Of a DNA stretch of 34,199 bases, positions 17,181 through 31,084 are shown piece after piece. The translations under genes and the position numbers were made by a program. The notes beneath the pieces were generated by a model. That model ran no database searches, was not told the DNA's origin, and worked only from the letters and a program-made list of their open reading frames with translations. Each line of letters starts with the position of its first letter. Positions within the stretch are counted from its first letter, which is position 1. The stretch is from an uncultured Methylococcaceae bacterium (GTDB taxonomy: Bacteria > Pseudomonadota > Gammaproteobacteria > Methylococcales > Methylomonadaceae): assembly GCA_903866825.1 (NCBI GenBank), contig CAIPPE010000030.1:1-34199 (forward strand), written 5' to 3'.

Positions 17181-17192
17181 TTCCAGGCGTTA

Positions 17193-17807
17193 TTAAATAA
17201 CTATTTTAGTGATAGGATTACAAAAATCTGATGTTCCTGCTGAGGAAATACTCGCAGATTGAATATCATAAGAAACACCCGGGGTTAAGTTATCTATTAG
17301 GATTCGAGTGATAGTGCTAATATCCACCTCAACCCATTCTGATATCACGCCTGACACGGTTGATTTTCTATAGCGTATTTTATAGGCAACAGCCCCTAAA
17401 ACAGCTTTTAACACAACAATAATACTGCCACTATGACCGCCATCTATAGCATCTATTTCTGGCTTTATATAGGGTGTCGGTTGTTTTGAAGCATGAAAAC
17501 CGCTTTTGATAATGGTGGTTTCATTACCATTAGCGACTTTATTTACGTAATTAAGCAGGACTCTATAGAGATCATCGGCAATCTGTTCTTTATCATTCCT
17601 GATTGCAATGGCACTGTGGGCACCATCTTTTGCTGCCAAAATGGCTGCTTCAAAATCAGCAATGACTGCATTAATAGTTTCTATCGGGACTTCAAGATTG
17701 GGGAAAAGGAGTGTATCTGCCAGTTGAATGGCAATGTTTTTATATATGACGATTTTGTCGTTCACAGAAAGCGTGACAAAGTCGAGTAACGCTATAGTTC
17801 TCTTCAT
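17193..17807 (-). CDS. Cytoplasmic protein with a C-terminal fibronectin type III-like domain
   Basis: A 204-residue protein without signal peptide or membrane segment. The first 110 residues look helical (IETINAVIADFEAAILAAKDG, DKEQIADDLYRVLLNYVNKVAN). From about 120 a beta-rich fold follows, GAVAYKIRYRKS...SEWVEVDI...ILIDNLTPGVSYDIQSASISSAGTSDF, which has the Y-x-I-R, N-L-x-P-G-x-x-Y-x-I-x pattern of fibronectin III modules. Such combinations occur in bacterial proteins of unknown role. I cannot assign a function. The gene lies beside the 21-bp array, reading away from it. Confidence 0.75.
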   Translation of the reverse strand: MKRTIALLDFVTLSVNDKIVIYKNIAIQLADTLLFPNLEVPIETINAVIADFEAAILAAKDGAHSAIAIRNDKEQIADDLYRVLLNYVNKVANGNETTIIKSGFHASKQPTPYIKPEIDAIDGGHSGSIIVVLKAVLGAVAYKIRYRKSTVSGVISEWVEVDISTITRILIDNLTPGVSYDIQSASISSAGTSDFCNPITKIVI

Positions 17808-17912
17808 TAAGCTTATCCTTTTTATTCATTATCCTTCGGAGTCACTTACTATAGGCCACTTAACCTAAATAGCTAGTTATATTATTAATAAAATGGTTTG
17901 TCTAATATGATT

Positions 17913-18500
17913 AAGATGAGGCAAAGGGCTAACTGATTGAAAGATTGGGCTAATTAATTGTTGGTTCTGGGTAATTATTTAAGCTGTTTTTCCGAAAACT
18001 GATGACAAAAAGCAGGATACATCTCCTTATTGACCTAAACTATTTAATAACTTGGCAACACAGTATGCAATAATACCAATGAGACTTCGTATCAGGCCCG
18101 CAAATTATCCTATTGGGCTAATGAGGCATCCTAAAGTCCTAATCACGTATCCTATTCCACCAACTGCTTATCTTATTGAGCCTGTGGTGTCTCCTATAAG
18201 GAAAATTGTACATACAAAACTGCAAAAAGGATAACCAATATGCCTTATTGAATATTGAATACCCAAAATAGGCTATCAAAAAAGCCTTAAAGTATGTTGA
18301 ATAAGCAAAATAGGCTGTCCTAAAAGGAGAATAGGACGTACAAAAAGCAAAATCGGAAGTACAACAAGGAGAATAGGATATCAATAAATGCTTTTAGGAT
18401 AAGCAAAAACCATTATTGATCATTGATTAATGACTGACATAAGTACATTAACCGGAATAGGCTATCCTAAAAGGAAAATAGGCTATCCTTTGGATAATAG
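17913..18500. repeat. Array of 28 diverged 21-bp units in exact register
   Basis: Cutting the sequence every 21 bases from 17913 gives 28 units without any insertion or deletion needed. The best-kept units are 18312, 18459 and 18480 (AGGCTATCCTAAAAGGAAAAT type) and 18102 and 18123 (ATCCTATTGGGCTAAT type). A rough consensus is AGGCTATCCTAAAAGGNAAT with ATCC at columns 6-9 and AAT at the end. Units at the left (17913-18060) share mainly the final GGGCTAAT/CCTAA part. All units point the same way. There are no identical repeats with unique spacers, so it is not a CRISPR array. One plus frame reads heptads of the type K-I-G-Y-P-K-R but contains several stops, and the minus frame is open only over 18139-18384. 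It may be decayed coding repeat, a protein-binding array or a structural element. Confidence 0.75.
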
Positions 18501-18559: not shown

Positions 18560-18882
18560 TTAAGGAGCCCAATCAAATACCAATAGTTCGGCCTTCTTGG
18601 CATCCGTTATCTGGATCTGGCTTTCTTGCTCCAGCAATAGCGCATCGCCGGTAATGATTTTTTGACCATTCACCTTTAGTTCTCCATGAATCAAGTGAAC
18701 ATAAGCTTTTCGATATGGATTCAATACCAGCTCGGCTGCTTGATCACTATCAAATAATCCCGCAAATTACCCCACCCCATAAAATTTGGATCATAGTAAT
18801 CGGCAAATGAAAGCGAGTGGTAGCTTTTCAGCCAGCCATGATCAACATAACCACGTTCTGCAGATTTTCTGAGTTTCAACAT
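18560..18882 (-). pseudogene. Pirin-family gene with internal deletion and frameshift
   Basis: The 5' part has a good ribosome site (AGGGGA) before an ATG at 18882 and encodes MLKLRKSAERGYVDHGWLKS, YHSLSFADYYDPNFMGWGNLR, the pirin/YhhW N-terminus. Then the frame changes: AGLFDSDQAAELVLNPYRKA, YVHLIHGELKVNGQKIITGD, ALLLEQESQIQI, ending LVFDWAP at 18560, which is the pirin C-terminus. About 120-130 residues of the usual 230, including the metal-binding HPH/H-x-E region, are missing. The junction is at about 18759-18764. The remaining product cannot bind the metal and is surely inactive. Confidence 0.88.
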
Positions 18883-19040: not shown

Positions 19041-20636
19041 ATGGACATTTCTTACATTGTTTTGTTGTATATCGGCAGTATCGGTGTTTGGATGCTGTAT
19101 TCTATTTTTTCTAACCTAGAAAACTTTTGTAATACCCACCGTAAGACAAATATTTCAGGCCTGCCTGATAAGTTTGTTCGAATAAAAAGATTCTTTTTAG
19201 GCATTAATCTACGCTACTTTACTATTTTTGCCTTTGCTATTCTTTTTCCATCTTTGAGTTTTGCAGAAGAAATCCAATCGACAACGCAATTAGATTTAAA
19301 AAATCATTTTATCGGCTATCTGGGTATTGCCATTACTGTGTTGGCGTATGCTATTGCCATGACAGAAGATTTACATCAATTAAGTAAAGCCAAGCCGATG
19401 GTTTTAGGCTCTGCATTAATTTGGCTAGCCATCTTTGTTTATTATAAAGTGGAGTTTGGGTCTGCAAAAAATGTAGCGATTGTTTTTCAGACTAATTTAA
19501 TGGCCTATGCCGAGTTGTTTTTATTTATTACCGTGTCGATGACCTTTTTAAATGCAATGACTGAGCGGCGTATTTTTGACGCCTTACGGATAGTTCTAGC
19601 CAATAGGCAGTATAGTTATAGGCAATTATTCTGGATTACCGGCATATTGGCTTTCATTTTATCAACGGTTATTAGTAGCTTAACAGTGGGTTTATTAATG
19701 GGCTATATCATTTTGGTGATTGGAAAAGGTGACCCAAAATTTGTCGGTTTGGCAGGCTTAAATGCCGTCATCGCCGCAAATGCAGGAGGAACCATGAGTC
19801 CGTTAGGGGGTATTTCTACCTTCTTTGTTTGGCAACAAAACATGTTGCATTTCACACAGTTTTTTAACCTGACACTACCCTGCATAGTCAATTTCTTTGT
19901 TCCTGCCTTCATCATGTATTTCTCTGTTTCCAAGGACAAGCCCGCGTTTCCAAAAGAAACACCTATATTAAAGCGCGGCAGCAAGCGGATTATATTTATA
20001 TTTATACTCACCTTCAGCATGACCATTTTATCCAATGTGTTTCTTGATATGCCTGCGATAGCCGGGATGATGCTGGGCTTGGCGATATTACAGTTCTTTG
20101 CCTATTATTTGACCCGATCCGAGAAGCTGGGGCACTTTTTAATTCCTGAAACTGAACAAACGATAGATTCACAAAAAGGCTTTGATGTTTTTAAATGTAT
20201 CGCTGGTGTTGACTGGGATACCCTGTTGTTTTTCTATGGGGCGATGATGATAGTCGGGGCACTGAATTTTCTGGGTTATTTAGATGAGATGGCACATTTT
20301 CTATTTACCCAGATTAATCCTACCCTTGCCAATATCTTGATTGGTTTATCTTCCTCATCGATTGATAACGGAACCTTGATGTTTGCGGTACTCAATATGC
20401 ATCCCACGCTTCCCGTTGGGCAATGGCTGTTATTAACCCTGACCTTAGGTGTGGGGGGTAGCCTGTTAGCGATTGGTTCCGCGCCTGCATTACACGTATT
20501 GGGCTTAATGAAAGGCAGTATGAAAGAAGGTGAGGGTTATACCTTTACCTTACATTTACTTTGGATGCCGGCCATTCTATTAGGTTTTTTTGCGAGTATT
20601 GCAACACTCTATCTTATCAACGGCGGCCATTTTTAG
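19041..20636 (+). CDS. nhaD: NhaD-type Na+/H+ antiporter (first copy)
   Basis: A 531-residue membrane protein of the NhaD family (ion transporter superfamily) that expels Na+ or Li+ in exchange for protons. About a dozen hydrophobic helices are visible. Family segments: SKAKPMVLGSALIWLAIF, NRQYSYRQLFWITGILAFILSTVIS, ANAGGTMSPLGGISTFFVWQ, VDWDTLLFFYGAMMIVGAL, SSSIDNGTLMFAVLNMHP and TLGVGGSLLAIGSAPALHVLGL. Compared with the second copy it has about 50 extra N-terminal residues with an added hydrophobic helix (4-23), before the helix ending PSLSFAEE that aligns with the second copy's N-terminus. The start is backed by GAAGGA 9 bases upstream. The kinase gene follows after 26 bases. Confidence 0.93.
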   Translation: MDISYIVLLYIGSIGVWMLYSIFSNLENFCNTHRKTNISGLPDKFVRIKRFFLGINLRYFTIFAFAILFPSLSFAEEIQSTTQLDLKNHFIGYLGIAITVLAYAIAMTEDLHQLSKAKPMVLGSALIWLAIFVYYKVEFGSAKNVAIVFQTNLMAYAELFLFITVSMTFLNAMTERRIFDALRIVLANRQYSYRQLFWITGILAFILSTVISSLTVGLLMGYIILVIGKGDPKFVGLAGLNAVIAANAGGTMSPLGGISTFFVWQQNMLHFTQFFNLTLPCIVNFFVPAFIMYFSVSKDKPAFPKETPILKRGSKRIIFIFILTFSMTILSNVFLDMPAIAGMMLGLAILQFFAYYLTRSEKLGHFLIPETEQTIDSQKGFDVFKCIAGVDWDTLLFFYGAMMIVGALNFLGYLDEMAHFLFTQINPTLANILIGLSSSSIDNGTLMFAVLNMHPTLPVGQWLLLTLTLGVGGSLLAIGSAPALHVLGLMKGSMKEGEGYTFTLHLLWMPAILLGFFASIATLYLINGGHF

Positions 20637-20662
20637 GGTATATTTGAAGCTGCTTATCAAGC

Positions 20663-22222
20663 ATGAAAAATCCTTATTTCAGTAAAGATACGGCGGAACC
20701 TCTTCAGGCCTATTTACTTTGGGGCATTTTTATTACCCTGGCATTAACCTCTATTAGCTGGCTTTTGAGGCAAGTGCTAACACCGAGCAATATATTGTTA
20801 CTGTATATGCTCGGGGTTTTTTTTGTCGCACTTAGATTTGGGTTTTGGCCCTCTATTTTCGCAACCTTAACCATCATTCCTGCTTTTGCTTATTTCTTTG
20901 CCCCGCCAATATTTTCTTTAGCAATTGACGATCAAGAAAATTTAATTGGCTTATTGCTGCTATTGAGTGTTGCCGGGGTTACTAGTAATTTGGCTAAAAA
21001 AATTCGTCATCAAGCCTATATGGCGGAACAGCGTGAATGGCGAGCATCAGTGCTTTACAGTTTAAGTAAGGAGTTAGCAGAAGCCAGTAAAGAAAAAGAA
21101 ATCATTGAAATTGGAGTGCGTTATATCTACGCCGAGTTTGGTGGACAGAATACGTTTATTTTTCCTGATGAAAAGGGACAACTGACCTACCCGATTGAAG
21201 CAGCCCTTGATATTTCCTTAAAGGGCGTTAATTTAGGTGTGGCTACCTGGGTATTTGATCATGGAGAAATAGCCGGTAATAGCGCTGAAAGCTTTCCCAA
21301 TGAGCCGGCTCTTTATGTCCCCGTGAATGGGGTAAAAGGCACTATTGGCGTGATAGCACTGGGCCTTGAAAGCATTAAAATCAAAGATTTTCTTTCTGAA
21401 CAAAAGCAGCTTTTGGACACTTATGTCTATCAAATTGTACATACTCTCGAAAGAGCTCAGTCAGCCGAGGTAGCTAAAGATGCCATTTTGAAAATGCAGT
21501 CTGAAACTCTGAGAAACTCATTGCTTAGCAGTATTTCTCATGATCTTAGAACGCCATTGGCTACCATCGTAGGAGCAGCCAGTACATTGGAAACGGATGG
21601 GGCATTTTTAGATGAACATTCTAAAAGAAAACTGGTGACTGTGATCAGTGAAGAAGCACAGCGTATGTCCGATTTAACCATTAAGATTTTGGAAATGGCC
21701 CGACTCGAAGGCGGTGAAGTCGTTCTTAATCGGCAATGGTATGCGCCTGAAGAAATCGTGGGCAGTGCCTTACAGCGACTCGATAAAAAGCTTAAAAACA
21801 GGCCTATCACTATTCATATGCCGGATAATTTAGCTTTAATTCAAATTGATGCGGTGTTGTTACAACAGGTTATGGTGAATCTATTAGATAATGCGGATAA
21901 ATATTCTCCCGTTGGCTTACCGATTGATATTTCAGTCGTCACTATGCCGCTCGGCTTATTTATTACTATTGCTGATCGTGGACCTGGCATTCCAGAACAG
22001 TTTCACCAAAAGATTTTTGACAAGTTTTTTCGGGTCAATGATGAATGTGCTCAAAGTGGTGTGGGATTAGGCTTGTCAATTTGCAAAGCTATTATCGAAG
22101 CGCATGGCGAAGAGATACGGGTCAGTAACCGGAACGGGGGGGGGGCCTTGTTTCAAGTCTACCTGCCACTATTGGAACTCCCGCCCGTGATCAATGAAGA
22201 AGTGAGTGAGTTCATCGTATGA
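20663..22222 (+). CDS. KdpD-like sensor histidine kinase lacking the KdpD/USP N-terminal domains
   Basis: A 519-residue membrane kinase. Helices at about 15-110 form the DUF4118 four-helix sensor region of KdpD. A GAF-like domain follows (about 130-260). H293 in SSISHDLRTPLATIVGAASTL is the phosphoacceptor, and the ATPase has NLLDNADKYSP, DRGPGIP and GVGLGLSI. True KdpD (about 890 aa) also has an N-terminal KdpD domain and a universal-stress-protein domain, both absent. In KdpD these modulate the response to K+ and turgor. Transcribed directly after nhaD and overlapping the regulator gene by 4 bases (ATGA), it probably reports membrane or ion status for the antiporters. Confidence 0.93.
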   Translation: MKNPYFSKDTAEPLQAYLLWGIFITLALTSISWLLRQVLTPSNILLLYMLGVFFVALRFGFWPSIFATLTIIPAFAYFFAPPIFSLAIDDQENLIGLLLLLSVAGVTSNLAKKIRHQAYMAEQREWRASVLYSLSKELAEASKEKEIIEIGVRYIYAEFGGQNTFIFPDEKGQLTYPIEAALDISLKGVNLGVATWVFDHGEIAGNSAESFPNEPALYVPVNGVKGTIGVIALGLESIKIKDFLSEQKQLLDTYVYQIVHTLERAQSAEVAKDAILKMQSETLRNSLLSSISHDLRTPLATIVGAASTLETDGAFLDEHSKRKLVTVISEEAQRMSDLTIKILEMARLEGGEVVLNRQWYAPEEIVGSALQRLDKKLKNRPITIHMPDNLALIQIDAVLLQQVMVNLLDNADKYSPVGLPIDISVVTMPLGLFITIADRGPGIPEQFHQKIFDKFFRVNDECAQSGVGLGLSICKAIIEAHGEEIRVSNRNGGGALFQVYLPLLELPPVINEEVSEFIV

Positions 22223-22917
22223 GTGTAAATAAAGCCTTGCTCTTGTTGATTGAAGATGATCCGCAATTCCAGATGTTGTTAAGTACCACTTTAGAAAATC
22301 AGGGTTATCAAATAGTGACTGCTACGACTGGTAAAGAGGGACTTATTGTGGTCCGTAATCAACAGCCGAACCTGATTGTTTTAGATCTCGGCTTACCTGA
22401 TATTGACGGGCAGGAGGTCATTCGAAGTTTACGAAAATGGTCAGAAATCCCTATAATCGTGTTGTCAGCCCGGCATCAGGAAAATGAAATCACCCAGGCG
22501 CTTGATAACGGTGCGGATGATTACCTCACGAAACCTTTCAGTACTGCCGTACTCATCTCCAGAATAAAGGCGTTGCTTAGGCGCGTTACTAAAATCCCGG
22601 GTGGATCTCAAGAGTATTTTCAGGTCGGAGAGATAAAAATAGAACTGACTAAACGTTTGGTATTGGTTGGTGAGCGAGAAGTGAGCCTAACACCTATCGA
22701 ATTTAAATTACTCAGTATATTAATACGCCATGCCGGATTTGTAGTCACTCATCGGCAATTACTCGAACAGGTTTGGGGCGCATCCTATATTGAACATAGT
22801 CATTACCTACGCATTTATATGGGGCATCTACGACATAAGCTTGAAGCTGATCCAGCTAGACCAAAATATTTGTTAACTGAAGCCGGTGTAGGATATCGAT
22901 TACAAGATGGCGGTTGA
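22219..22917 (+). CDS. KdpE-like OmpR-family response regulator
   Basis: A 232-residue DNA-binding regulator. The receiver has IEDDPQF at the acidic pocket, phosphoacceptor D56 in IVLDLGLPD, and the conserved KP in DDYLTKPFS. The C-terminal winged helix (about 130-230) reads SLTPIEFKLLSILIRHAG, VVTHRQLLEQVWG, YLRIYMGHLRHKLEADP, ending YLLTEAGVGYRL, all typical of KdpE. Overlap with the kinase ATGA makes them a cognate pair. No kdpFABC genes are in the window; the two flanking nhaD genes are the natural candidates for its regulon. Confidence 0.95.
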   Translation: MSVNKALLLLIEDDPQFQMLLSTTLENQGYQIVTATTGKEGLIVVRNQQPNLIVLDLGLPDIDGQEVIRSLRKWSEIPIIVLSARHQENEITQALDNGADDYLTKPFSTAVLISRIKALLRRVTKIPGGSQEYFQVGEIKIELTKRLVLVGEREVSLTPIEFKLLSILIRHAGFVVTHRQLLEQVWGASYIEHSHYLRIYMGHLRHKLEADPARPKYLLTEAGVGYRLQDGG

Positions 22918-23164
22918 GCATTACTTCTGGAGTATAAGCGTCATAAACTTTACTTTCCAAAAATCGCTGATAGATTTAGTGCTTGCTAGCGGCCCAATAG
23001 ATAAAAAACAGGAAACTTTTTTAAATTAGTCATTAAGCTAAAAGACAAAACTTTTTTAGGCAACTATAATGCCTGTCAAATAAAGGCACTTTCAGGCTAA
23101 ATAGAATGGTGGCCAGAGTTTGCATACGATATGACGTGATATAACATTATAATTCTAGAAATAA

Positions 23165-24607
23165 ATGAATAGAAATTTATTAAAATTCTTAACCCTTGGA
23201 TTCTTGTTTATAACTCCTGGGATAACTTTTGCCAGTGAAGGTTTAGCTCCTCATCAACCACTCGGCTTAACTAATCATATCGTCGGCTATCTTGCTATAT
23301 TCGTTACCGTTTTGGCCTATATCGCTGCAATGTCAGAAGAAGTGCTTGAATTGCGTAAATCCAAGCCCATGGTGCTAGGTTCTTCGCTGGTCTGGTTTGC
23401 GATATGTATCTATTACTCATTTAATGGAGAAGCAAAAGTTGCAGCACTTGCTTTTGAAAGCAATCTGCTGGCCTATATAGAATTGTTTTTGTTTATCCTG
23501 GTTTCAATGACGTATTTAAACGCAATGGAAGAGCGCGGTGTTTTCGATGGACTTAGGATATGGCTACTTAATCGACAATATAGTTATCGGCAATTATTCT
23601 GGATTACCGGGATACTGGCATTTCTGCTGTCTACGGTCATTAGTGGTATGGCAGTAGCCTTGATATTGGGTTCAGTTGCTGCTGCAGTGGGTAAAAAAAA
23701 TAAAGACTTTGTTGCTTTGGCTTGCCTCAATGTTGTGGTGGCGACTAACGCGGGTGGTTCTTTAAGTCCATTAGGGGGTATTTCGACGCTGTTTGTTTGG
23801 CAAAATAAAATCCTGCCCTTTTATGAATTCTTTACCTTGGCTATTCCTTGTCTGGTGAATTTTCTGGTGCCTGCAATTTTCATGCATTTCTTTGTTCCCA
23901 AAGAAACTCCGGCGGCCTCTACCAGCACTATTTGGCTGCGTCGCGGTAGTAAAATAGTTATTTTCCTTTTTATATTAACACTAGCAATTACAGTTTGGTC
24001 GAATATTGTTTTACAACTTCCGCCAGCCGCTGGAATGATGGCAGGTCTTGGTTTATTGCAGTTTTATAGTTTCTATCTGACCAAAACGGCTCGTGAAGTA
24101 AAAAGTGATTTTGCACATGTCTATGAACTCTTTCAGGTAGAAGCACCCCGAAATAATAAAAAACAGGATTTTGATATTTTCAAGAACATCAGTACAGTGG
24201 ATTGGGATACACTGCTATTCTTTTATGGCGCGATGATGTTAATTGGTGCCCTTGGGTTTATTGGTTATCTTGATTCTATTGCACATTTTTTGTTCGGTTC
24301 AATTAGTCCTACTCTTGCCAATACGATCATTGGACTTTCATCTGCGTTCGTTGATAACGGCACCTTAATGTTTGCTGTACTGAGTATGCATCCAGATCTT
24401 GTAACCGGTCAATGGTTGCTATTAACCCTGACTTTAGGGGTTGGGGGAAGCTTGTTGGCAATCGGTTCTGCCCCTGGCGTCGCATTGCTAGGTCTGATTA
24501 AGGACGGCTATTCCTTTGCATTCCATATGCGCTGGACGCCAGTAATATTACTCGGTTATTTTGCTAGTATCGCCGTGCATTTCTGGATAAATGCCAGGTA
24601 TTTTTAA
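23165..24607 (+). CDS. nhaD: NhaD-type Na+/H+ antiporter (second copy)
   Basis: A 480-residue antiporter, clearly a paralogue of the first copy and sharing its motifs: SKPMVLGSSLVWFAICIYY, NRQYSYRQLFWITGILAFLLSTVIS, ATNAGGSLSPLGGISTLFVWQ, VDWDTLLFFYGAMMLIGALGFIGYLD, SSAFVDNGTLMFAVLSMHP and TLGVGGSLLAIGSAPGVALLGL. It lacks the first copy's N-terminal extension and begins at a signal-anchor-like helix (FLTLGFLFITPGITFASEG). The ATG has no obvious ribosome site, so translation may be weak or conditional. Preceded by 247 bases of spacer, it probably has its own promoter. Confidence 0.93.
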   Translation: MNRNLLKFLTLGFLFITPGITFASEGLAPHQPLGLTNHIVGYLAIFVTVLAYIAAMSEEVLELRKSKPMVLGSSLVWFAICIYYSFNGEAKVAALAFESNLLAYIELFLFILVSMTYLNAMEERGVFDGLRIWLLNRQYSYRQLFWITGILAFLLSTVISGMAVALILGSVAAAVGKKNKDFVALACLNVVVATNAGGSLSPLGGISTLFVWQNKILPFYEFFTLAIPCLVNFLVPAIFMHFFVPKETPAASTSTIWLRRGSKIVIFLFILTLAITVWSNIVLQLPPAAGMMAGLGLLQFYSFYLTKTAREVKSDFAHVYELFQVEAPRNNKKQDFDIFKNISTVDWDTLLFFYGAMMLIGALGFIGYLDSIAHFLFGSISPTLANTIIGLSSAFVDNGTLMFAVLSMHPDLVTGQWLLLTLTLGVGGSLLAIGSAPGVALLGLIKDGYSFAFHMRWTPVILLGYFASIAVHFWINARYF

Positions 24608-28114: not shown

Positions 28115-31084
28115 ATGACTAAGCCATTAGAATTTCCGGTCGTTGGTATTGGTGCTTCGGCAGGTGGCTTGGCAGCCTTCGAGGAGTTTTTCTCCAGCAT
28201 GCCTATCAATCCTGATCTGGGGATTGCTTTTGTGCTTGTGCAGCATTTGGCGCCTGACCACAAAAGTCTTCTTGCTGAAATTATTCAACGTTATACTTCA
28301 ATGTCGGTTTTTGAAGTTAAGGACGGAACAATAGTACAACCTAATTGCATTTACGTCATCCCACCTAATTGTAGTATGGCGTTTCAGAGCAATTCATTGC
28401 AGTTGTTTAATCTTTCCGAGACTAATAAATCCCGTTTACCCATTGACTTCTTTTTTCGTTCACTGGCCCAGGAGCTGCATGAACGAGCCATCGTCATCCT
28501 ACTGTCAGGTGCAGGCAATGACGGCACCCAAGGCGTACGGCTCATCAAGGCGGAGTGTGGTATGGTGATGGCGCAATCTCCAGAATCAATTGAGTTTGAC
28601 AGCATGCCAAGCAGTGCAATTGCTACTGGACTCGTGGACTACGTGCTGCCCGTTAACGAGATGCCAGGCAAATTGATATATTACCTCACCCATGCCTACG
28701 GCAAGCTCGGACCCTTAGGTTCTAGCTTTGCGCTTAATAGCCAAAACGCGATGAAGAAAATTTTTATTTTGTTGCGTAACCAGACGGGGCACGATTTTTC
28801 ACAGTATAAACCTAACACCATCAATCGCCGTATTGAACGGCGTTTGGTCGTTAATCATATCGAGGCCATTGGTGATTACATCAAGTATTTACAACAAACC
28901 CCTGCCGAAGTGGAGGCGTTGTTTCAGGATATGCTGATAGGTGTGACCAATTTCTTTCGTGATACGTCGGCGTTTTTAGCGCTGGAGGAACAGTTTAAAA
29001 CCAGGCTCTTTGTCAATAAACCGACCGGTACGGTATTCCGTGCCTGGGTGCCGGGGTGTTCCACTGGCGAAGAAGCCTATTCTATCGCTATGCTGATAGT
29101 AGAAATTATGGAGTCACTGAAGATCGAGTATTCGGTACAGATTTTTGCTACTGATATTAATAGCCAGGCGATATCGGCAGCTAGAAGTGGTGTCTATCCA
29201 GCCAATATTAGTGAGTATTTGACTCCAGACCGGATGAAACGGTTTTTTACCGTAGAACCCGATGGTTGTAACTACCGTATTCATAAAAGGATACGCGAGA
29301 TGGTGGTATTTTCCATTCATGATTTAATTAAAGATCCGCCGTTCTCAAAACTTGACCTCATAAGTTGCCGTAATTTGCTGATCTATCTGGACGCCGCGCT
29401 ACAAAAGAAAATAATTCCTTTGTTCCATTACTCGCTTAATCAGGACGGGCTGTTGTTTCTAGGTACTTCAGAAGGTATTGGCGATTGTGAGGACCTTTTT
29501 TCTGCTTTGGATCGTAAATCCAAACTCTATCTGCGCCAAGGAAACAGTTATAGCAGTCATGGCGCCAAGAGGGTATTTATTCCTCCAACCCCTAAGCTTA
29601 ATGCACTAAATCAATCCAGTATCAATAAAAAATATCAATCGAAACCGCCGCTACGTGAAATAGCCGAACAGATGCTCTTGAAGCATATCGCTGCTTCAGC
29701 GGCACTGGTTAATAGTAAAGGTGACATCTTCTATTTACATGGGCGCACCGGGATGTATTTAGAGCCAGCTTCGGGTGAGACGGGGACCAATAATATTCTG
29801 AAGATGGCCAGAAGCGGCCTGAGATCCCCACTAACGATGGCCTTGCAGAAAGTGGTGACGAGTGGCGAGATGACTCAAGATACATCGTTGCGGGTTAAAA
29901 CCAATGGTCATTACAGTTTGGTAAACTTAAGTGTTTGCCCTGTAACCTCTAATTATCTGGATACATTTGAGCCGACTTTCTATCTGGTTATTCTGGAAGT
30001 AGCGCCTGGTATAGATCCTGAACAAATACAGCAGGCGCTGACCGAGAATCCTGCAAAGGATCTCTTGGTGGACGATAACGAACGTATTATTGCCGAGCTT
30101 AAACAGGAGCTGTCAGACAAGGAGGCTTACATTCTGTCTACCCATGAGGCGTTGGAGTCGTCGAACGAAGAACTGAAATCGACTAACGAAGAAATGCAGT
30201 CGGTTAATGAAGAATTACAATCCACCAATGAAGAACTCGAAACTTCAAAAGAGGAATTGCAATCGGTCAATGAAGAACTGAATACCGTTAATGTCGAGTT
30301 GCAAGCCAAGGTGGATGCTGCTGCGCAACTCTATAGTGATATGAATAACTTGCTGGATGGGTCTGGAATCGCCACGCTCTTTGTAGATAATAATCTACGT
30401 ATTTTACGTTTTAATCCGCTGGTTACCCAAATTATTAATCTGCTTCCACACGATACGAATCGCCCTATCAGCCACATTGTTTCCAATTTGATCCATTACC
30501 ATCACTTGGCTGAGGATGTAAAGACTGTTCTTAAAACCTTGCTTCCTTTTGAGAAGCGTGTACAGGATACGGACAACAAATGGTATAGCTTGCGGATTTT
30601 ACCTTATCGTACCCTAAACAATTCGATTGAGGGGGCTGTCATTACCTTTGTTGATATCAGCAGGACGATACAGTTTGAAGAGGCGCTGGAAAAAGCGAAT
30701 AGACTGCTGCGTTTAAGCGTCGTAGTCCGCGATGCTCATGACGCCATTACTGTACAGGATTTGAATGGTCATATCCTGGCCTGGAACCCGGGTGCGGAAA
30801 GAATGTACGGTTGGCGTGAACAGGAGGCCTTATTGATGAACGTTAAGGACAGAATTCCAGAAAATCTGCGGGAAAAGGCTTTGGGTAAGGTGATTAAGCT
30901 TAGCCAGGCTAATGTGTTGAAGCCTTATCGTACCCAACGTATTACTAAAGATGGGGCGGTTCTGGGGGTTTGGATTACCGCAACTGCTTTGATCAATGAA
31001 ACGGGGCAGATGTATGCAGTTGCAACAACTGAACGGGTCATTGAAGCCCAGAACGACAATGTTCTGGAATCCAAAAATGACTAG
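28115..31084 (+). CDS. CheB-CheR-PAS fusion (receptor-type methylesterase/methyltransferase signalling protein)
   Basis: A 989-residue cytosolic protein. Residues 1-190 are a CheB methylesterase: GIGASAGG (catalytic Ser), VQHLAPDHKS (His), LSGAGNDGTQG (Asp). Residues about 205-475 are a CheR methyltransferase: NRRIERRLVVNHI, LIGVTNFFRD, SAM loop VPGCSTGEEAYSIA, ISCRNLLIYL. A coiled coil (about 680-730) of seven near-identical heptads, SNEELKS/TNEEMQS/VNEELQS type, joins two PAS domains (about 735-855 and 860-975). Both catalytic sites look intact. A ribosome site AAGGA precedes the ATG, which follows the ATPase stop directly. There is no CheB receiver domain, so it is not controlled by CheA phosphorylation in the standard way. 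No chemoreceptor is nearby; its target may be non-chemotactic. Confidence 0.95.
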   Translation: MTKPLEFPVVGIGASAGGLAAFEEFFSSMPINPDLGIAFVLVQHLAPDHKSLLAEIIQRYTSMSVFEVKDGTIVQPNCIYVIPPNCSMAFQSNSLQLFNLSETNKSRLPIDFFFRSLAQELHERAIVILLSGAGNDGTQGVRLIKAECGMVMAQSPESIEFDSMPSSAIATGLVDYVLPVNEMPGKLIYYLTHAYGKLGPLGSSFALNSQNAMKKIFILLRNQTGHDFSQYKPNTINRRIERRLVVNHIEAIGDYIKYLQQTPAEVEALFQDMLIGVTNFFRDTSAFLALEEQFKTRLFVNKPTGTVFRAWVPGCSTGEEAYSIAMLIVEIMESLKIEYSVQIFATDINSQAISAARSGVYPANISEYLTPDRMKRFFTVEPDGCNYRIHKRIREMVVFSIHDLIKDPPFSKLDLISCRNLLIYLDAALQKKIIPLFHYSLNQDGLLFLGTSEGIGDCEDLFSALDRKSKLYLRQGNSYSSHGAKRVFIPPTPKLNALNQSSINKKYQSKPPLREIAEQMLLKHIAASAALVNSKGDIFYLHGRTGMYLEPASGETGTNNILKMARSGLRSPLTMALQKVVTSGEMTQDTSLRVKTNGHYSLVNLSVCPVTSNYLDTFEPTFYLVILEVAPGIDPEQIQQALTENPAKDLLVDDNERIIAELKQELSDKEAYILSTHEALESSNEELKSTNEEMQSVNEELQSTNEELETSKEELQSVNEELNTVNVELQAKVDAAAQLYSDMNNLLDGSGIATLFVDNNLRILRFNPLVTQIINLLPHDTNRPISHIVSNLIHYHHLAEDVKTVLKTLLPFEKRVQDTDNKWYSLRILPYRTLNNSIEGAVITFVDISRTIQFEEALEKANRLLRLSVVVRDAHDAITVQDLNGHILAWNPGAERMYGWREQEALLMNVKDRIPENLREKALGKVIKLSQANVLKPYRTQRITKDGAVLGVWITATALINETGQMYAVATTERVIEAQNDNVLESKND
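30157..30303 (+). repeat. Coding 21-bp heptad repeats in the CheB-CheR coiled coil
   Basis: Seven consecutive 21-base units encode (E/Q)S-x-NEEL-type heptads linking the CheR and PAS parts. This is the family's usual coiled-coil linker and explains the repeat. It is not related in sequence to the array at 17.9-18.5 kb, although the period is the same. Confidence 0.85.

Follow-up and report, generated by a model that had tools for sequence, protein, structure and literature searches.

Bacterial tandem repeats are usually treated as neutral minisatellites, iterons, or CRISPRs. Plasmid iterons are direct repeats of ~20-22 bp that are spaced by integral helical turns, lie beside a Rep gene, and have a repeat sequence specific to the replicon. 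The sopC locus of the F plasmid is centromere-like and consists of ~43-bp tandem units, each with a dyad. In eukaryotes, centromeric satellites form higher-order repeats in which the monomer length is fixed, turnover is fast, and blocks of several monomers are amplified. BrickBuilt, as outlined in the abstract of its source, is a minisatellite-MITE of Porphyromonas gingivalis with a 23-nt repeat and inverted-repeat ends (PMC4596501). Another source describes TAACTGA direct repeats in Beggiatoaceae, Cyanobacteria, and Bacteroidetes (PMC4679880).

The window analysed here, i.e., the whole of a 34,199-nt contig (C30) from a 4.28-Mb draft genome of an uncultured Methylococcaceae bacterium in 345 contigs, contains a tandem array that is the DNA half of a dispersed gene-array cassette: a gene for a helical-FN3 protein together with its own private array, usually upstream. 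There are many such cassettes per genome, and their arrays share period, length, and weak dyad symmetry, but not sequence.

Like iterons, the arrays have periods of 20-21 bp and multiples beside one gene, with their own sequence at each locus. Unlike iterons, the cassettes are many and dispersed in each genome, the arrays run to hundreds of bp, the units are diverged, and the neighbouring gene encodes an acidic helical-FN3 protein; two such proteins queried against the plasmid collection gave no match. We considered an iteron-Rep replicon and rejected it, as the repeat spacing is present but no adjacent initiator is (55 family members were compared with Pfam and NCBIfam, and none matched a Rep protein). 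The arrays resemble sopC in having tandem units of around four turns, dyad symmetry, and an adjoining gene; they differ in that the partner protein has no ParA/ParB-type match in Pfam or NCBIfam and in that each genome carries many unrelated arrays. The array may work like an iteron or centromere-like array by analogy, and we file it as neither because no initiator or Par protein was found. A CRISPR or other repeat-spacer array was also rejected, since the units are contiguous, diverged, and without spacers and none of the 55 members had a PADLOC match. With centromeric satellites the arrays have in common a fixed monomer, quick sequence turnover, and block amplification, but they are bacterial, only a few hundred bp long, mostly tied to a gene, and built on a two-turn monomer.

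BrickBuilt is likewise a multicopy intergenic tandem array in a Bacteroidota genome, but its 23-nt sequence is constant, it has inverted-repeat ends, and its abstract names no partner gene family (PMC4596501). The TAACTGA repeats are short direct repeats upstream of many genes and patchy over distant phyla, as are the arrays, but are described as a single 7-nt sequence near the start codons of many gene types (PMC4679880). A search of open-licence PMC text found no description of such gene-array cassettes, and the main text of a paper on Methylobacter genomes (PMC12810054) has no mention of fibronectin, repeats, paralogs, or mobile.

The array and its partner gene in the window

A preliminary description of the window had proposed that positions 17913-18500 hold diverged 21-bp units in exact register. 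This periodicity is real: lag-21 identity is 0.474, against 0.278 +/- 0.019 in dinucleotide shuffles, and none of 1000 shuffles scored as high. When any lag from 5 to 63 was allowed, 0 of 300 shuffles reached the observed score. Lags 42, 63, 84, 105, and 126 each give identities within 0.445-0.48 and, since these are uniformly high, a single register runs throughout 17913-18500. The strength of the periodicity is uneven, being pronounced only from 18102 (lag-21 identity 0.511, z 10.2) and weak before it (0.399, z 3.8, with 1 of 300 shuffles equal at some lag). At period 21, Tandem Repeats Finder scores just 18322-18378 within the array, and homology with other copies of the array stops at ~18491. 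The features of the locus are collected in Table 1.

Table 1. Features of the gene-array locus, in window coordinates.
Feature	Coordinates	Strand	Description
Partner gene, 204 aa	17193..17807	-	N-terminal all-helical domain (residues 1-107) and C-terminal FN3 domain
Leader, array to gene	17808..17912	-	-10-like TATAGT (complement of 17848-17853); possible ribosome-binding site (complement of 17815-17819)
Degenerate gene-proximal part of array	17913..18101		9 units with weak periodicity; small register-breaking indels in relatives at 17913-17992
60-codon open frame in array	18052..18234	+	YPI-type heptads; judged not to be a gene
Tandem array core	18102..18491		~19 diverged 21-bp units in exact register; consensus near AGGATATCCAATAAGGAAAAT

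The array begins ~105 bp upstream of the partner gene. Upon comparison of upstream regions by eye, the -10-like TATAGT of the leader was seen in many family members; a consensus scan found 6 sites against 6.4 expected and did not pick the TATAGT of the leader. The window array has a dyad z of 1.9-2.0, and its DNA retrieved no relatives from the plasmid collection.

Three other stretches of the window can be described alongside the array. The sequence at 18560-18882, which adjoins it, is 93-95% identical to two pieces of contig C273 that lie ~375 bp further apart there, and we take it to resemble a pirin-type gene with an internal deletion. At 19041-24607, a gene for a DUF4118-containing sensor histidine kinase lies between two CitMHS (citrate-transporter-type) genes. 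Within the ORF at 28115-31084, a coding 21-bp periodicity occurs at 30108-30317; it is probably that of an ordinary repeat protein and unrelated to the array.

AlphaFold2, run on the 204-aa protein with a 55-sequence alignment, predicted a helical part and a beta part (pLDDT 89.3, pTM 0.52), and the helical part alone was predicted with a pLDDT of 92.8 and a pTM of 0.83. The beta part is an FN3 domain, per profile searches against PDB (best with a many-domain titin chain, at E 4.9e-34, and also with a two-domain fragment, at 2.8e-9), Foldseek, and Pfam, in which fn3 was matched in 17 of 55 family members (E<=0.01). The fold of the helical domain retrieved no match at E<=0.001 in PDB or BFVD, and no Pfam, NCBIfam, or PADLOC family spans the whole protein in any of the 55 members. 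The ratio dN/dS is 0.31 between the window gene and its relative in another genome, G012, and 0.38 and 0.15 in two other family pairs, which shows the gene to be under purifying selection. Proteins of the family are mildly acidic, with a median pI of 6.0 and a median net charge of -3 for the helical domain.

Related copies of the gene and array

The same DNA occurs in the window's own genome on contigs C231 (88%), C99 (86%), and C120, where it ends at the contig edge, and also in G012, which is from a congener, on its contig C51. Homology between the window and G012:C51 covers 17190 to 18485; it sets in at the gene's stop codon, runs out where the array does, and is absent on either side. As the two share the gene and array alone, both seem to travel as one unit. 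The gene is broken in C231. C120 retains the start of the array and the leader, followed by sequence like that past the G012 gene, with the gene itself missing.

These copies raise the possibility that the array is a relic or tail of a MITE- or minisatellite-type mobile element with the gene as its passenger. The recurrence of the gene and array in differing contexts (window and G012:C51) and the truncated copies at C231, C99, and C120 would suit such an element. On the other hand, the shared unit contains no other gene, the flanks of the window and G012:C51 copies show no clean empty site or target duplication, and the purifying selection on the gene in three pairs speaks against a passenger. 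We consider a mobile element improbable.

The preliminary description had also held that no indel shifts the phase of the array, a claim that the relatives bear out for 17993-18480 and contradict for 17913-17992. In slices from 17993 onward (451-497 aligned columns, 87-93% identity), there is no net gap among the window, C231, and C99; the G012 copy differs by a single gain of 21 bp and a single loss of 42 bp. With softer gap costs over 17993-18480, the window still aligns gap-free to C231, and the alignment to G012 divides the 21-bp gain into two parts, keeps the 42-bp loss, and adds a +1/-1 pair. At 17913-17992, the small gaps, four against C231 and four against G012, add up to net displacements of +3 and +2 and break the register. 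Substitutions per base (C231 and G012, respectively) are 0.143 and 0.086 in the leader, 0.238 and 0.225 at 17913-17992, 0.174 and 0.220 at 17993-18101, and lowest, at 0.045 and 0.069, at 18102-18480. Slow substitution together with change almost exclusively by whole units indicates a constrained core and an unconstrained gene-proximal end. When gaps and substitutions were compared between leader and array, a Fisher test gave p 0.012 with a boundary at 17993 that was chosen post hoc; with the boundary at 17913, 4 of the 7 C231 gaps fall inside the array, and we thus do not rely on this value. Among other array pairs, single-base net gaps were found in 11 of 15, nine of them in one pair (L032/L154) with periods of 41 and 20, and some pairs have odd-sized gaps. 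The register is therefore not strictly guarded across arrays.

Arrays beside family genes and elsewhere

The window's genome contains 23 matches to the gene family (E<=0.001), and 18 of the 41 genomes searched, all of one genus, match it. In a sample of the taxonomic family, 9 of 121 genomes match, eight in the window's genus and one, weakly, outside. A class sample of 274 genomes yielded five matches beyond the window's genome, all of which are merely FN3-domain pieces of longer frames, and a phylum sample of 200 genomes yielded one weak match beyond it. A scan of named genomes added loci of two kinds, 70 in total: Methylococcales, namely Methylobacter psychrophilus, records labelled Crenothrix polyspora, and other Methylococcaceae/Methylococcales; and Bacteroidota, namely Paludibacter, Bacteroidales, Chitinophagaceae, and others. 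Judging from near-identical places, M. psychrophilus appears to belong to the window's genus. Whole-genome searches of 15 genomes behind such loci returned 1-14 matches each, some partial or to FN3 only. In viral contigs, 39 pattern matches to the family were found and 0 confirmed, and the phage, plasmid, and viral collections contained no relatives of the family proteins, two proteins having been queried against plasmids.

Arrays were scored as the best self-match at lags of 10-69 in 168-bp windows over 800 bp on each side of a gene, with a threshold of 0.4821, the maximum over 435 shuffled upstream regions. One locus (L063) with no tblastn hit was dropped before counting; from 110 loci, 103 remained after removal of 7 copies at >=95%, and 4 of these had less than 400 bp upstream, leaving 99 testable. 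Upstream arrays exceed the threshold at 68 of the 99 loci (Methylococcales 55/84, Bacteroidota 13/15), and every one of the 68 best lags is 20, 21, 40, 41, 42, 60, or 63; the other 31 upstream regions are below threshold. Downstream, 11 of 96 regions exceed it (Methylococcales 10/82, Bacteroidota 1/14), nine with best lags that are helical multiples and the remaining two with lags of 14 and 16, and some subfamilies carry the array downstream. As a control, 800-bp pieces of the remaining window were above threshold in 2 of 78 cases, both at 29501-30700 inside the ORF at 28115-31084. Lowering the threshold to 0.482 adds three borderline loci, for a total of 71, with all lags in the 20-63 set. 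At this threshold, 21 loci have no array on either side, and 11 of them nevertheless have a best lag in the set, versus a 15% random expectation (p 7e-5); the same is true of 20 of the 85 sub-threshold downstream regions.

A fresh test on 40 of the matches listed for 11 Bacteroidota genomes in the whole-genome searches, with near-copies kept in, gave 32 upstream regions above threshold, at lags of 21 (7), 42 (21), 62 (1), and 63 (3). Downstream, 2 of 40 were above it, both at lag 14. Helical phasing, first proposed from the window's 21-bp period, is supported across the family, where the periods (20, 21, 40, 41, 42, 60, 62, and 63) are approximate multiples of two turns and often not of three. 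A best lag of 14, together with 28 or 21, was seen downstream of the family gene at three loci (L313, L316, and L155), possibly as a 7-bp-based tandem repeat just past the gene.

The background rate was estimated by scanning 800 kb of another genome, G006, in which 26 places were above threshold. Eight of its 10 family genes have an array place within 900 bp, at lags of 21, 42, 62, and once 66, one of these places sitting in a 163-codon open frame; at the rate of far non-ORF places, this has p ~1e-11. The other 18 places comprise 9 within ORFs of >=150 codons and 9 outside, and 5 of the 18 are also at lags of 20, 21, 42, or 63.

A lag-63 array in G006 lies ~240 bp upstream of a different gene (L347:4611-5303, on contig C10), the 231-aa product of which has no Pfam or NCBIfam match. 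This gene belongs to a second family of ~230-aa proteins, with at most a weak FN3 match (E 0.009) and no significant similarity to the first family in hhalign (probability 1.3, E 0.04). Matches to the second family occur in 20 of the 41 genomes searched, all of one genus, and number up to 18 in a single genome. Of 30 loci from this genus, 6 were dropped (1 with a short upstream region and 5 not full length), and 9 of the 24 full-length loci are above threshold upstream, all at 21, 42, or 63, compared to 0 of 23 downstream.

Arrays were also found apart from family genes. An orphan array resembling that of the window occurs at G008:C255 (L239, ~2200-2500), with a hipBA-like pair on one side and a collagen-like G-X-Y repeat gene on the other (names by eye), and 10 kb around it contains no significant match to the window's protein. 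In G006, strong 42-bp arrays at L319:14727-15208 and L353:9096-9632 have no family gene; an argH-like gene is downstream of one and a transposase remnant is by the other (names by eye).

Turnover, coding capacity, and possible roles

We delimited 79 arrays. Those upstream are typically 377 bp long and stop 157 bp short of the start codon (medians), and whole-array self-match spans 0.40 to 0.79. A 20/21-bp sub-period is retained in 52 of the 64 arrays with a best period of >=40, as though older 21-bp arrays had been amplified in blocks, like higher-order satellites. The share of gene pairs with similar arrays falls with protein identity: 13/15 at >=80%, 8/25 at 70-80%, 3/53 at 60-70%, and 3/2820 below that. 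Array sequence is thus inherited with the gene but lost fast, becoming unrecognisable below about 60-80% protein identity, while the period persists.

Against column-permuted controls, reverse-complement self-match has z>2 in 43 of the 79 arrays and z below -2 in none. This dyad was replicated in 21 of 32 arrays of the fresh set, and a null check gave 2 of 32. Palindromy is weak, with a paired fraction at the best axis of 0.446 versus 0.395 in column-permuted controls, and covariation between their arms across units is unconvincing (0.039 versus 0.031 in a row-shuffled control). Weak dyad symmetry of the units is as expected of protein sites. Conserved columns cluster at offset 1 (z 5.2) and are depleted at offset 5 (z -3.3), but the second rise at offset 10 that contacts on one face of the helix would produce is missing (z 0.7). 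As A/T-rich columns dominate the conserved ones, mutational bias could contribute. The suggestion that the array forms a bent structure is weakly supported at best: an A/T signal at 10-10.5 bp stands out in 23 of the 79 arrays and in 7 of the 32 fresh ones, and it is absent from the window array (p 0.2-0.3).

An alternative offered in the preliminary description was a decayed heptapeptide-repeat gene. For a decayed or an active gene of this kind, one could cite that the open frame of Table 1 is present in C231 and C99 and one heptad longer in G012, so that a frame of 60-67 codons recurs in four copies. Additionally, 15 of the 79 arrays stay open over >=95% of their length in one frame or another, and for 20 of 79 no more than 1 of 50 column-permuted controls reaches the longest frame, an excess above chance in which no consistent protein or strand is seen. 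Differences within the window frame, though, are spread evenly by codon position (3/3/3 against C231 and 6/8/6 against C99) and are mostly nonsynonymous, and array periods include 20, 40, 41, and 62. The even codon-position changes and the periods of 20, 40, and 41 disfavour a heptapeptide gene, as does the fact that the 18 upstream arrays open over >90% are so on the gene strand in 12 cases and on the opposite strand in 6, with unrelated peptides. We regard this origin as highly implausible.

The transcribed array could instead act as RNA, with the partner protein binding a series of small hairpins or guides. Folding energy is indeed below that of column-permuted controls, but equally so for either strand (mean z -2.4 and -2.7), and on the gene strand upstream arrays do not tolerate G-T (890 seen, 948 expected) more than A-C (1168 seen, 1233 expected). 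The -10-like box seen by eye between array and gene in many members also argues against it, and no Rfam family was matched in the window. An RNA-level element is thus unlikely, and the arrays are probably neither protein-coding nor RNA.

Another explanation is that the arrays are a functionless mutational by-product, in which local replication or recombination duplicates two-turn steps beside genes. It would suit the freedom of the sequences to change, the amplification of two- and three-unit blocks, the orphan arrays without a gene (G008:C255 and L319 and L353 in G006), and the register-breaking indels at the degenerate end of the window array and in other pairs. It accounts less well for the clustering of arrays at two gene families that are unrelated to each other, the first spanning two phyla and the second examined in this genus, for a window core that changes more slowly than the leader and nearly always by whole units, and for the dyad symmetry and clustered conserved columns. 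We judge this explanation to be unlikely, while giving it more weight than the RNA or mobile-element readings.

The reading that we favour, tentatively and at a little less than even likelihood, is that the cassette array is a putative platform for a dimeric DNA-binding protein with sites two helical turns apart. Such a protein would occupy these sites on one face of the helix and, once bound, may polymerise or loop, controlling or marking the adjacent gene. Exchange of whole units and amplification of two- and three-unit blocks would rewrite the sequence while selection favours the spacing. Given the mild acidity of the partner protein, a host factor may bind the array in place of the cassette's own product. 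Control of a promoter fits poorly, as some subfamilies carry the array downstream.

More broadly, and with considerably more doubt, the cassettes could represent an undescribed, widespread system of private DNA addresses, in which each helical-FN3 gene would have its own helix-phased palindromic array, rewritten in satellite-like fashion, and orthogonal nucleoprotein platforms would read the spacing, in at least two unrelated families, one of them in two phyla. That two-turn spacing is kept in two phyla while the sequence turns over points to a structure that reads spacing. The arrays would offer a bacterial counterpart to the satellite-DNA puzzle of a monomer length that outlasts its sequence, in a system of a size that permits editing, and they serve as a marker for two large uncharacterised protein families.
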